This document shows positions 26,879 through 39,577 of a stretch of DNA of 64,000 bases, one piece after another (position 1 is the stretch's first letter; each line of letters opens with the position of its first letter). The notes below the pieces were generated by a model. That model made no database searches. It was not told the DNA's origin and saw only the letters and a program-made list of their open reading frames with translations. Source of the DNA: Candidatus Poseidoniia archaeon. GTDB lineage: Archaea; Thermoplasmatota; Poseidoniia; MGIII; CG-Epi1. The DNA lies in the NCBI GenBank assembly GCA_030748895.1, contig JASMLC010000004.1, positions 1-64,000 of the forward strand, in the 5' to 3' direction. The position numbers and the translations under genes are program-made.

Positions 26879-27459
26879 GTGACAGGCTACGCACCCGCCG
26901 CGGGCGGCTGCAAACGCGCGGCACGGCTGGCTGGCGCGACTGGAATCCGTACCGCAGCAAGCTGGCGGCGTGGCTGCGCGCCAGCGGCCACGAGTGGCCG
27001 CTGCCGCCCGACGCGCGCGTGCTCTACCTTGGCGCTGCCGAAGGGACGACCGTTTCGCACCTCGGCGACCTCTGCCCCGACGGGCGCGTCGCCGCGGTCG
27101 AAATCTCGCCGACGGCGATGGCGGAACTGCTGCCGGTGGCGGAGCGCTACCACAACCTGCTGCCGGTGCTGGCCGACGCCCACTTCCCCGCGCAATACGC
27201 GCCGCAGGCCGACGGCTGCACGTTCCTCTATCAGGACGTTGCGCAGCGCGACCAGCTCGCGATTTTCTGTCGCAACTGGGACGCATACCGCCCACGGCAG
27301 GGGCTGCTGATGCTCAAGGCGCCCGGAATCCGTGGCGGCGCCCCGCAGGCAGTGCTCGACGAGGCGGAGGCGGAACTGCACGCCACGTTCGCGACGGTCG
27401 AGCGCAGCGACATCGCGAAGTGGGCGAAGGGGCACGCGGCGTTCTGGGTCGAGGACTAG
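26875..27459 (+). CDS. flpA: Fibrillarin-like rRNA/tRNA 2'-O-methyltransferase
   Basis: The methyltransferase of archaeal C/D box ribonucleoproteins, 194 residues from GTG 26875, which overlaps the top6B stop by four bases. Signatures are WNPYRSKLAAWL, the SAM-binding VLYLGAAEGTTVSHL, VAAVEISPTAM and FLYQDVAQRDQ. It is shorter than the usual ~225 residues because the N-terminal beta domain is reduced. Nop5, its usual genomic neighbour, is absent here. Confidence 0.94.
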   Translation: MSDRLRTRRGRLQTRGTAGWRDWNPYRSKLAAWLRASGHEWPLPPDARVLYLGAAEGTTVSHLGDLCPDGRVAAVEISPTAMAELLPVAERYHNLLPVLADAHFPAQYAPQADGCTFLYQDVAQRDQLAIFCRNWDAYRPRQGLLMLKAPGIRGGAPQAVLDEAEAELHATFATVERSDIAKWAKGHAAFWVED

Positions 27460-27740
27460 GCGTCAGCCTGCCACGCAGCCGCCAGCACGCCGCTCTGGTA
27501 GAGCTGGTTCAACAGCTCGCGGCCGTGCGGCTCGGGGATTTCGCGGCCTTGCGGGGTCGCCGCGAGCAGGCCGGCCTCCGCGAGCACCTTGTAGCGGTGG
27601 CGCAGCATCGAGTCGCGCTTCCGCAGCTCGTCGACATCGCCCGGCGCGAAGAGTTCCCGGGCGCCGTCGGTGACGCTCGAGTCGGGGTTGTCGGCGACGA
27701 ACGCCAGAATGGCGATATCGACGTCGTCCAGCCAGCCCAC
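27456..27740 (-). CDS. Small winged-helix DNA-binding protein
   Basis: This 94-residue protein is predicted to be a stand-alone winged helix: a first helix with DVDIAILAFVADNP, a segment up to ARELF, a recognition-type helix SMLRHRYKVLAEAGLL and a short wing ending in the GREIPEPHGRELLNQL helix. The start is probably GTG 27740, 19-30 bases from TTAAATAAA on the minus strand. A perfect palindrome (27775-27794) lies just upstream of that box and recurs at 38437-38456. This protein is therefore a candidate to bind it. That link is inference from adjacency. Confidence 0.65.
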   Translation of the reverse strand: MGWLDDVDIAILAFVADNPDSSVTDGARELFAPGDVDELRKRDSMLRHRYKVLAEAGLLAATPQGREIPEPHGRELLNQLYQSGVLAAAWQADA

Positions 27741-27774
27741 GTCCCGGTGCAGCGGGTCGATTTATTTAAGCGGG

Positions 27775-27794
27775 ATTCAAAAAAAGTTTTTGAA
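27775..27794. promoter_or_regulatory. Palindromic element between divergent genes (copy 1)
   Basis: ATTCAAAAAAAGTTTTTGAA contains the inverted repeat TTCAAAAA/TTTTTGAA with a 3-base spacer. It lies between two TATA-like boxes: TTTATTTA (27761-27768) facing the winged-helix gene and GTAAATAGG (27801-27809) facing the membrane protein gene. An identical 20-mer occurs at 38437-38456. The position fits an operator or activator site for both promoters. Confidence 0.6.
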
Positions 27795-27828
27795 AGAGAC
27801 GTAAATAGGCGCCGCCTTTCGAAACCGC

Positions 27829-28215
27829 ATGGAACTGTCGGCGCGGCGCGAGCTGGCGTGGGCTGGTGGAGTGCTGCTGCTATTCCTGGCGCTCTTCGTC
27901 GTCATCGGACTGCCGCAACCGGCCGAGCTGGTGCTCTTCGTGGCGGCGTACAGCTCGAGCTGGGTCATCGTCAGCTACGCGGTCAGGACCTTCGGCGCCG
28001 GCAGCTTCGATAATGCGAGCCTCGAGAAGGAAATGGGCTGGTTCGGCGGCGTGCTGCTGCTCTTCCTGGCGTTCCTGACGCTGGTCGGCGTCCGCGAGCC
28101 GACGGTTTTCGTGATTGCGACCGCCGCCTTTTCAATCAGCTGGTTCGTGCGCAGCATCATCCTCAAGCGGCTGGGGCTCGCCGAAGTGCTGACGGCCGGT
28201 CGGTCCGAGCGGTAA
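27829..28215 (+). CDS. Small four-helix membrane protein with internal duplication
   Basis: This 128-residue protein consists of two similar halves. Each has two membrane helices starting with a GGVLLLFLA block (residues ~13 and ~75) followed by a conserved SWxV segment. I do not recognise the family. A GTAAATAGG box 20-28 bases upstream supports the ATG at 27829. It shares a divergent, palindrome-containing control region with the winged-helix gene, so co-regulation is plausible. Confidence 0.6.
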   Translation: MELSARRELAWAGGVLLLFLALFVVIGLPQPAELVLFVAAYSSSWVIVSYAVRTFGAGSFDNASLEKEMGWFGGVLLLFLAFLTLVGVREPTVFVIATAAFSISWFVRSIILKRLGLAEVLTAGRSER

Positions 28216-28292
28216 GCTGGCGGCGGGCTCGCGACCAGAAGCCTGTTCAATTCCCGAAATCCGGGTCCCACCTTCCTTCGGTCAGTGGGGCA

Positions 28293-36899: not shown

Positions 36900-38390
36900 T
36901 CAGACGACAGGAGGTTTTTCCGTATCGTCTTGAACTTGCTCACTTTTCTTTGGGCGTTCTTTGATTCCATACATCATTCGTGTGACCCAATTACGTTTCA
37001 TTGCCTCGAAGAAAATCCAGCATCCTAACACGACCAGAGCCGTGGTCAGAAGGAATACCGTCAGATCAGAATAACCCTCCCTCAACAAGAAGAATAGGCC
37101 GATGTAAACCAAAGGCTGGTGGATTATGTAGAATGGATAGACGCCTCGATTCAAGTAAGCAAGATGCGAACTCGGGCGGTTAAGCAAAAAGGCACCCCAG
37201 GAAAATATAGCTAGACACCAAAACCAGGCGTGAAAACTGGTCACGAAGCAGGAAATAATTGTCATATTGGTGTGATAGAACTCATTGTTTTCAATCCAGC
37301 CGCCACCTATGTACGGGATTCCGGTTTTTACTTCCTCCGCCCTAATCCAGAAGAAAGCTATAGTGAATATTACGGTTGCAATGGTTATTTGTATTCTCGA
37401 ATTATCTATGAATTCAAAGTATTGATCTTTGGCAATTATGAACATGTAACCGAACAGGAACGTCAATAGATACCAGGGCCATTCATAGCCAAAACCAATA
37501 GCTTCTCCCATCAAGGGTTTGAAAAGCAAATCGGAGATCGTGAGAATCAATGGCAAAATCAACAGGGGCCCCATTCTGAATGGCATCTTGAAAACCCCCT
37601 TAATTACCCGGGAGATTCGCCCATCCGGATTGTTTCTGACAATCGAGAATATTGGAATTAGAATTATGGAATATTGCAAAAGACTCCATATAAACCACAA
37701 ATGTCCAAGAGCCAGGAGTCTGCAAAGCAATGGAATTATCATCATGAAAGTCATGACAATTCCAAAACCAAGGAATGCGGCCATACCTTCCAGGATACTG
37801 CCTGGGAAGTAGCGTAAGATAATCATCCATGTTATCGGAGTAATGGTCCAAATTCCGGCAATCATAGGTATCAGCAAACGTTTGGTCCTCTCCTTCAAAA
37901 ATATCTTCCATGTTCTCCGTTTGAAGGCAAACGCAGTGCCCATTCCACTAATCATGAAGAGGGCCGCAATACGCCATTCGTGCATCCATCCCAAGACTCC
38001 CGTTCCCAGAGACGTATAGACATTTGCTGCATCCTCTCCAGCTTCCTGATCTAAACTGTCGCGACTTTTGTCCTCATCCTCCTCATAATCCGGTAAAACA
38101 AAATCATATGCATCGACATACACCCCAATCGCTACATGGAAGGGCAGGAGTAATCCGAAAAGGATGACGCGCAGCCAGTCGACGTCGTAGCGCCGCTCCC
38201 GCTTCACGGGCTGCGCTTCATCATCGGGAGCTGCCACTGTTGCCGGCTCGATAATGTCACCACCCGAAGGCGAAGCGAAGGCTGTAGCGCCCGGAATCTT
38301 CCGCGAGGTAGTCGTGCGGGTGCGCAGAATGTCCGTCGCCCGCCTTCCATTTCCTATATTCCTCCTCCTCTGCCTGTGACTTCCCGCCAC
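36900..38390 (-). CDS. Acyltransferase family 3 membrane protein (OafA/MdoC-like), AT-rich
   Basis: This frame of up to 496 residues has ~10 membrane helices and the acyltransferase-3 pattern: YDVDWLRVILFGLLLPFHVAIG with its His, the HEWRIAALFMISGMG block, RLLIPM, GHLWFIWSLLQY and a C-terminal YPFYIIHQPLVY. These enzymes O-acylate surface sugars or lipids. From ~36900 to ~38150 the DNA is about 40% GC by eye, far below its neighbours, and it abuts tRNA-Gly, so recent acquisition is likely. The N-terminus is unclear. A TATA box predicts a leaderless ATG at 38403 (MDSGSGG...) in another frame that stops at 38257, so a one-base frameshift near 38260-38290 is possible. In-frame GTG codons downstream are alternative starts. 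Confidence 0.78.
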   Translation of the reverse strand: MAGSHRQRRRNIGNGRRATDILRTRTTTSRKIPGATAFASPSGGDIIEPATVAAPDDEAQPVKRERRYDVDWLRVILFGLLLPFHVAIGVYVDAYDFVLPDYEEDEDKSRDSLDQEAGEDAANVYTSLGTGVLGWMHEWRIAALFMISGMGTAFAFKRRTWKIFLKERTKRLLIPMIAGIWTITPITWMIILRYFPGSILEGMAAFLGFGIVMTFMMIIPLLCRLLALGHLWFIWSLLQYSIILIPIFSIVRNNPDGRISRVIKGVFKMPFRMGPLLILPLILTISDLLFKPLMGEAIGFGYEWPWYLLTFLFGYMFIIAKDQYFEFIDNSRIQITIATVIFTIAFFWIRAEEVKTGIPYIGGGWIENNEFYHTNMTIISCFVTSFHAWFWCLAIFSWGAFLLNRPSSHLAYLNRGVYPFYIIHQPLVYIGLFFLLREGYSDLTVFLLTTALVVLGCWIFFEAMKRNWVTRMMYGIKERPKKSEQVQDDTEKPPVV

Positions 38391-38422
38391 TTCCGGAATC
38401 CATACCTCGCCGGAGGCGGCGG

Positions 38423-38432
38423 CCTATATAAT
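38423..38432 (-). promoter_or_regulatory. TATA box facing the acyltransferase gene
   Basis: The minus strand reads ATTATATAGG here, centred ~25 bases from an ATG at 38403. The palindrome at 38437-38456 lies a few bases further upstream, with the same spacing as at the 27.7 kb copy. Confidence 0.5.
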
Positions 38433-38436
38433 GCAA

Positions 38437-38456
38437 ATTCAAAAAAAGTTTTTGAA
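38437..38456. promoter_or_regulatory. Palindromic element between divergent genes (copy 2)
   Basis: This is ATTCAAAAAAAGTTTTTGAA, identical over 20 bases to 27775-27794. It lies between the acyltransferase TATA box (38423-38432) and a second AT box (TAATTATACC, 38489-38498) facing the PKD lipoprotein gene at 38522. In both places the palindrome begins 6-8 bases upstream of the minus-strand TATA box. Confidence 0.6.
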
Positions 38457-38521
38457 GGCGCGATTACGCCCGCCTCCGCCTGCGCAAAGTAATTATACCG
38501 GCACCAGCCCCCTGCGGCGCG

Positions 38522-39577
38522 ATGCGACACTACGCGCTGCTCATCGGGCTGCTGCTGCTGGCGTCAGGCTGCCTCCACCCGGACGATGGTGAGGCGAACC
38601 AGCCGCCGAAGGCGAAAGCCGATACCGAAGGCGGCGGCCGCACCTTCGAGCCGGGGGCCGAAATCTGGTTCACCGGCGCCGGCTCGCGCGACCCCGACGG
38701 GGCATACCTGGAATACTTCTGGGACTTCGACCGCAACGACCAGAACGACGAGATGATTATCGGCGACGTCAACAATGACGGCCGCGCCTCACACGTTTAC
38801 CCCGACGAGGGCGGCTACACCGCGACGCTCACCGTGCGCGACATTGACGGCGCCGAGGACACCGCGACGGTCACCGTCACCATCAAGGGCGAATCGACCT
38901 CGCTGCGTGCCATCATCACCACCGACGACGAGACCGAGGCGACCTACCGCCCCGGGCAGCCGGTCGAGGTGGACTTCAGCGCTGCCGACTCGACCGCCGA
39001 AGGCGGCATCACGAAATACGAATGGGATTTCTCGTACGACTCGAGCGTCGGCTTCGAGGCTGACGAAGAGGGCGACAGCGACGAGGCGACCCGCGAGTTC
39101 GAGTCGGGCGTCTTCGTCATCGCGCTGCGCATCACCGACTCACTCGGCGAGACCGACGAGGCGAATGAGCCGGTGCGGCTCTACATCAACTTCAACAACA
39201 CCGACACGCGCGTCATCGGCTCCGGCACCCACGAGCACGACCTGCCGGTCAACGACCTCGGGCTCTACGCCGGCGGCAACCTGCGCTACATCCAGCTGCG
39301 GCTGGAGTACGACGCGGGCGGCTCGCACAGCGCGGACCTCGACCTCTACCTCTACAACCTGACCGGTGAGGAGGTCGCGCGCAACGAAACGCACGATACG
39401 TCGCAGGCGGAGCAGGTCAACACAATCCTGCTCGAATACCACAACTCGACCCAGAACCAGTGGTTCGACGAAGAAGGCGAACTCGGCGAGTGGACCGTCG
39501 AAGTGGTCCACCAGCGCTCATGGGGTGCGGACCCGGAATACACCCTCTGGATGGATGTTATCTACTGGGAAGAGTAA
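38522..39577 (+). CDS. PKD-domain lipoprotein
   Basis: This 351-residue protein has a lipoprotein signal (LLLLASGC, lipidated Cys17), then two PKD-type beta domains (GSRDPDGAYLEYFWDFD near residue 58 and ITKYEWDF near 162). A C-terminal ~130-residue beta domain resembles the prepeptidase C-terminal (PPC) fold, with ADLDLYLYNLTGEEVARNE. It is probably a cell-surface binding protein. A PKD lipoprotein of similar plan occurs at 47339-48934. Its promoter region contains the palindrome described at 38437. Confidence 0.78.
   Translation: MRHYALLIGLLLLASGCLHPDDGEANQPPKAKADTEGGGRTFEPGAEIWFTGAGSRDPDGAYLEYFWDFDRNDQNDEMIIGDVNNDGRASHVYPDEGGYTATLTVRDIDGAEDTATVTVTIKGESTSLRAIITTDDETEATYRPGQPVEVDFSAADSTAEGGITKYEWDFSYDSSVGFEADEEGDSDEATREFESGVFVIALRITDSLGETDEANEPVRLYINFNNTDTRVIGSGTHEHDLPVNDLGLYAGGNLRYIQLRLEYDAGGSHSADLDLYLYNLTGEEVARNETHDTSQAEQVNTILLEYHNSTQNQWFDEEGELGEWTVEVVHQRSWGADPEYTLWMDVIYWEE

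Follow-up and report, generated by a model that had tools for sequence, protein, structure and literature searches.

A palindrome at a fixed distance from the TATA element as the probable operator of a small Marine Group III regulon, with a winged-helix protein as candidate regulator

What does it mean that two divergent promoter regions of one Marine Group III archaeon carry the same palindrome and, if the element is an operator, which protein binds it and with what effect on transcription? In the window, that is, the whole stretch of 64,000 nucleotides analysed here, the 20-mer ATTCAAAAAAAGTTTTTGAA occurs in two exact copies, at 27775-27794 and 38437-38456, just as a preliminary description of this DNA had it; the rest of the window holds no further copies with up to 3 mismatches, and dinucleotide shuffles gave a match in 0 of 100 cases. 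The element had been called a 20-base palindrome. The copies are indeed identical over that length, but the symmetric unit is 19 bp long (27776-27794 and 38438-38456), namely a perfect 8+3+8 palindrome of the form TTCAAAAA-nnn-TTTTTGAA. Both copies lie between divergent genes, with a minus-strand TATA element 5 bp from the edge in each case and, since the sites sit between divergent starts, readings as a terminator or a hairpin were dropped. The features around the first copy are as follows.

27456..27740, minus strand: candidate regulator, predicted winged-helix protein of 94 aa, GTG start
27763..27770, minus strand: TATA element CTTAAATA serving the winged-helix gene, whose GTG start (27740) follows 30 bp downstream
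27776..27794, either strand: putative operator, copy 1, TTCAAAAA-AAG-TTTTTGAA, with a TATA-like element 5 bp off on either side
27800..27807, plus strand: TATA-like element CGTAAATA of the 27829 membrane-protein gene, 6/8 match, 29 bp upstream of ATG 27829
27829..28215, plus strand: small membrane protein, 128 aa, 4 predicted hydrophobic segments

Around the second copy, the arrangement is the following.

36900..38237, minus strand: acyltransferase-3 family membrane protein (PF01757, 4.4e-15), likely start GTG 38237, 8 predicted hydrophobic segments
38257..38403, minus strand: first ORF past copy 2, 48 aa, left over from a 173-aa membrane ORF by internal deletion
38425..38432, minus strand: TATA element ATTATATA, 5 bp from copy 2 and 29 bp upstream of ATG 38403
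38438..38456, either strand: putative operator, copy 2, identical 19-bp palindrome, spacer AAG
38490..38497, plus strand: TATA-like element TAATTATA of the PKD lipoprotein gene, 33 bp from the operator, a non-canonical spacing
38522..39577, plus strand: PKD-domain lipoprotein (PF18911), operator control uncertain

AT-rich words of this kind had been described as rare in this GC-rich genome, and the palindrome is indeed rare there. G000, the genome to which the window belongs (1.41 Mb, 97% complete), has 3 palindrome copies at up to 2 mismatches, 3/3 at promoters, against 0 for the reversed-pattern control run over the whole genome at the same threshold. The one further copy, TTCAAAATAAATTTTTGAA at G000:C2:80590-80608, carries 1 mismatch and is promoter-proximal, preceding a gene for a 626-aa membrane protein; its 19-mer is identical in G002, although the sequence next to it on the upstream side has partly diverged. 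Sites at 3 mismatches are noise (6 extra versus 4 in the reversed control). The second window copy, in turn, is kept in G001, with a single change in an arm and another in the spacer. Across the family, the 19-nt consensus is TTCAAAAnnnnnTTTTGAA, with near-invariant TTC/GAA ends and exact arm spacing.

What is more, the palindrome has a fixed relation to the promoter. Namely, a TATA element of the form TTWAWATA begins exactly 5 bp from the palindrome edge across the family, with the start codon usually about 30 bp beyond. The earlier suggestion of 6-8 bases to a minus-strand TATA box was thus correct in that such a box stands beside both copies, but the distance is fixed at 5 bp and applies on either strand. 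Among 15 promoter sites selected by the palindrome alone, 13 have a TATA 8-mer (at least 7/8 match) at offset 5 on one or both sides, and by sides the count is 14/30 against a flank background of 0.0025 per position (P ~4e-29), bearing in mind that the sites were assigned by their position before start codons and include orthologous copies, so that they are not fully independent. In other words, at 13/15 sites the palindrome lies directly upstream of BRE/TATA at a conserved distance, as in a TFB-RF1-type operator. Its edge shares one base, the first, with the BRE hexamer and, being 5 bp from the TATA 8-mer, places the palindrome centre about two helical turns upstream of TATA. In a crude test for a weak BRE, such as TFB recruitment would lead one to expect, BRE scores at these promoters did not differ from those of 34 other leaderless-like promoters, themselves without a clear BRE; the TATA elements are good.

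One could ask whether such an element has a dedicated factor at all, or whether it is just an A/T tract, a piece of curved DNA or the result of promoters happening to be AT-rich in a genome that is GC-rich. The motif is AT-rich and found in AT-rich promoter regions, as this reading would have it; against it stand the near-invariant ends, the exact arm spacing and the fixed TATA phase, and in AT-rich relatives, too, the palindrome is found chiefly at promoters. The composite of palindrome, 5-8 bp and TATA occurs in 9/21 Marine Group III genomes and in 0/223 genomes of other Poseidoniia, and the reversed-pattern composite in none of the genomes searched, so that we consider an explanation by base composition very improbable. 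The looser pattern TTCAAA-N7-TTTGAA, without the A-tracts, behaves differently: the 20 loci that were followed are mostly chance matches inside ORFs, and it is the specific form that marks promoters. The specific form is also conserved upstream of orthologous genes, namely at the acyltransferase locus in G001, G008 and G012 (in G008 and G012 with a TATA element and directly upstream of the gene), at the orthologue of the 27829 membrane protein in G006, again with TATA, and at the winged-helix operon of relatives. The genome-wide check proposed beforehand, i.e. whether the motif is random within genes or conserved upstream of orthologues, thus came out in favour of a regulatory element. We therefore regard the palindrome as almost certainly a real operator, as judged from sequence comparison, of a regulon that, in the class searched, is found only in Marine Group III archaea. 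No earlier description of Marine Group III regulation or of related motifs was found in the open-licence literature and, as far as searched there, the putative operator and its small regulon are undescribed.

Which genes would the two window copies serve? A palindrome between divergent promoters can plausibly serve both, as at 27.8 kb, where the TATA element 30 bp upstream of GTG 27740 also suggests that the winged-helix transcript is leaderless or nearly so. The 38-kb site, which had been proposed to control an acyltransferase and a PKD lipoprotein, is asymmetric with respect to its promoters, given the 33 bp between the palindrome and the plus-strand TATA-like box. The acyltransferase side, with its canonical TATA, bears the proposal out, but the promoter of the lipoprotein lacks that spacing. 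Since the fixed spacing is found on the minus strand only, copy 2 most probably controls the acyltransferase transcription unit. The acyltransferase is not the first minus-strand ORF there; it is preceded by the 48-aa remnant ORF, the 173-aa parent of which is intact in G001 (L075 3579-4100).

The adjacent gene was said to encode a small winged-helix protein, and structure prediction agrees with this. The AF2 model of the 127-aa G014 orthologue has three helices followed by a beta wing (H6-17, H23-31, H36-55, E59-64, E67-72; helix pLDDT ~87-92), which is the winged-helix order of elements; in the model of the window protein, the helices are confident and the wing region is poorly modelled. Over the wHTH domain, the product of 27456-27740 is 52-60% identical to its orthologues, which come from 6 Marine Group III genomes; these are proteins of ~125 aa with a beta-rich C-terminal part that the window protein does not have. 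It is hence a predicted winged helix, with no Pfam or NCBIfam profile above cut-off, no match in a PDB sequence search and a best Foldseek E of 0.02, the matches being scattered over BlaI/MecI, ArsR, MarR and linker-histone winged helices. The Lrp/AsnC family was rejected (HTH_AsnC reaches 13.8 bits, below the cut-off at 27, a RAM domain is not matched, and the proteins have 94-127 aa). A search of related loci with the single window protein gave no match and an alignment query succeeded, and a tree built on 64 columns of the winged-helix domain has support too weak to place the window protein. The gene is present in 7/244 genomes of the class, all of them Marine Group III. All copies except that of the window adjoin a membrane protein that has one TM segment and, at its N-terminus, a GYxKxR-like motif (L060 4495-6798, L061 2129-3946, L057 5347-5577 and L059 4102-4335); the CG-Bathy1 member of this group has a PF09826 beta-propeller ectodomain.

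The cassette of winged-helix and membrane-protein genes (27456-28292; L108) sits between a fibrillarin gene and tRNA-Thr. It is absent from that position in G001, G003, G004 and G005 of the window's genus, and it was thus gained or lost recently in the genus. As separate observations, G001 has at this position a partial duplicate of the 3' part of tRNA-Thr, as left by integration or excision; G000 holds two separated fragments, one N-terminal and one C-terminal, of a further winged-helix gene that has decayed or been broken up by a rearrangement (G000:C2, L077 6729-6833, minus strand, and G000:C5:95635-95730, L086 1395-1573; 81% and 94% identical in DNA to the copy in G019); and L115 is a contig with a Marine Group III-type winged-helix gene that is filed under a 'Candidatus Poribacteria' MAG (ARS61) and is probably misbinned.

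Is this protein the regulator? The palindrome and a canonical TATA are found at the promoter of the winged-helix operon in 4/6 genomes with the upstream region assembled (G000, G014, G006, G009), G018 being left out of this count as its contig starts inside the operon. Moreover, in G010, G011, G015 and G020, the same LOR-NfeD-SPFH island is present without the gene and without the palindrome, and no composite site occurs anywhere in these genomes. At the island, the co-occurrence of gene and palindrome is 3/3 versus 0/4 (Fisher p = 0.029); across the full set of 21 Marine Group III genomes, gene and palindrome are weakly associated (Fisher p = 0.04). Alternatively, a regulator encoded elsewhere could be the one that recognises this real operator, and the winged-helix gene would be no more than a member of the regulon. 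Namely, five palindrome-bearing genomes (G008, G012, G016, G001, G002) gave no match to the gene even at E<=5, with completeness of only 64-80% for G001 and G002 and 92% for G008, and no palindrome adjoins the winged-helix gene in G007 or G019. Against a factor encoded elsewhere stand the palindrome at the gene's own promoter in four of six assembled cases and the joint absence of gene and palindrome from the same island in four relatives, and we regard it as rather unlikely. The winged-helix gene is the best candidate for the regulator, and its product is likely to be the cognate factor of the palindrome; because of the five palindrome-bearing genomes in which it was not detected, the link is probable and not proven. 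The autoregulation proposed earlier, which presupposes that the winged-helix protein is the regulator, is probable as well: the palindrome stands at the gene's own operon in G000, G014, G006 and G009, though not beside the copies of G007 and G019.

The candidate targets in the individual genomes are listed below.

G000: winged-helix gene, 4-TM protein, acyltransferase unit, 626-aa membrane protein
G014: RDD protein, LOR-like protein (Pfam below cut-off), GYxKxR protein with winged helix, NfeD-SPFH, 275-aa predicted-TM protein
G006: 4-TM protein; a weaker 2-mismatch site between GYxKxR protein with winged helix and NfeD-SPFH
G009: LOR-like protein; GYxKxR protein with winged helix
G007 and G012: on one side RDD or a different membrane protein, on the other a FlaK-like A24 peptidase in divergent orientation
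G008 and G012: acyltransferase
G016 and G018: other, non-membrane genes

The putative targets are thus mostly predicted membrane or membrane-associated proteins, and an envelope-related physiology of the regulon appears a reasonable, if moderate, expectation. A search of G000 for the SPFH gene known from the G014 island, run with no positive control, did not find it. Separately, LOR-like genes of G002 and G005 (L135 2389-3306, L136 884-1807) are 83% identical to the G014 protein and are followed by an ORF that resembles a tyrosine recombinase by eye, which together suggest recent transfer.

Taken together, we find it fairly likely that the palindrome serves a small Marine Group III regulon as its operator and is bound by a winged-helix dimer that most likely activates. 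In this mechanism, a dimer of the 27456-27740 product or its ~125-aa orthologues would bind the two TTCAAAA half-sites and control its own operon together with genes of membrane type (acyltransferase-3, NfeD/SPFH, LOR-like, RDD, small multi-TM proteins, A24 peptidase), and the bound factor would help TFB/TBP onto the neighbouring promoter, as TFB-RF1 and GvpE do. The same operator and factor may instead work in repression, with the dimer lying against BRE and excluding TFB until it is released by a signal. Repression of the own gene is common among archaeal winged-helix regulators, and the overlap with the first base of the BRE hexamer is such that a bound dimer could block TFB. That said, the operator overlaps neither TATA nor the start site, and upstream palindromes at a fixed distance are a signature of archaeal activators (PMC5937170, PMC4706686), so that repression is a possibility to which we give limited weight. 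Indeed, activators such as TFB-RF1 and GvpE use palindromes immediately upstream of BRE/TATA, whereas repressor sites overlap TATA or lie downstream of it (PMC5937170, PMC4390858, PMC4706686), and because the fixed-distance arrangement is typical of the former, activation seems the somewhat better supported direction by analogy.

The closest parallel is the TFB-RF1 (PF1088) regulon of Thermococcales, where a small regulator likewise has a short palindrome at a conserved distance upstream of BRE/TATA and few targets, conserved across an archaeal family, and where the operon is autoregulated, as is probable here (PMC5937170). It differs in its 13-nt palindrome TCTGAANTTCAGA, as compared with the 19-nt TTCAAAAnnnnnTTTTGAA here, and in having one ABC transporter as target instead of membrane-type genes. 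The TFB-RF1 type combines a weak BRE with a bona fide TATA (PMC5937170); here the TATA elements are good and the BRE scores do not stand out from those of other promoters. The candidate here, unlike TFB-RF1, has no sequence match to a known regulator. The TFB-RF1 regulon itself was rejected as an identification, as its motif TCTG-N5-CAGA does not fit the palindrome. In haloarchaeal gas-vesicle promoters, the GvpE UAS, an element of ~20 bp, similarly adjoins BRE between divergent promoters, requires close spacing and, as is probable here, has the regulator gene among its targets; GvpE, however, is leucine-zipper-like and uses two overlapping UAS, as opposed to one shared palindrome and a winged-helix candidate (PMC4390858). 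TrmBL1 of Pyrococcus recognises TGM, a palindromic site with N5 spacing the position of which relative to TATA predicts the direction of regulation, but its sites are mostly downstream of TATA, the motif is unrelated and the regulon is sugar-related (PMC4706686). Finally, the sigma-W regulon of Bacillus places the SPFH proteins FloA, FloT and YdjI under common envelope-stress control, a similar set of gene classes; its mechanism is that of a sigma factor, and the likeness, in gene content only, is suggestive only (PMC8581546).

A more far-reaching version, which we consider doubtful, is a dedicated envelope-homeostasis regulon, in which a lineage-specific winged-helix activator would be held or released by the membrane partner from its operon, the latter, with a cytosolic N-terminal GYxKxR-type motif, one TM segment and, in CG-Bathy1, a beta-propeller ectodomain, sensing the state of the envelope. 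If true, this would be an archaeal analogue of the anti-sigma/sigma envelope-stress switch. Little is known about gene regulation in uncultured Marine Group III archaea, and the putative regulon supplies a defined operator, a TATA geometry, a short list of targets and one candidate regulator without a curated family, and ties genes of unknown function to a regulon that is apparently membrane-related.
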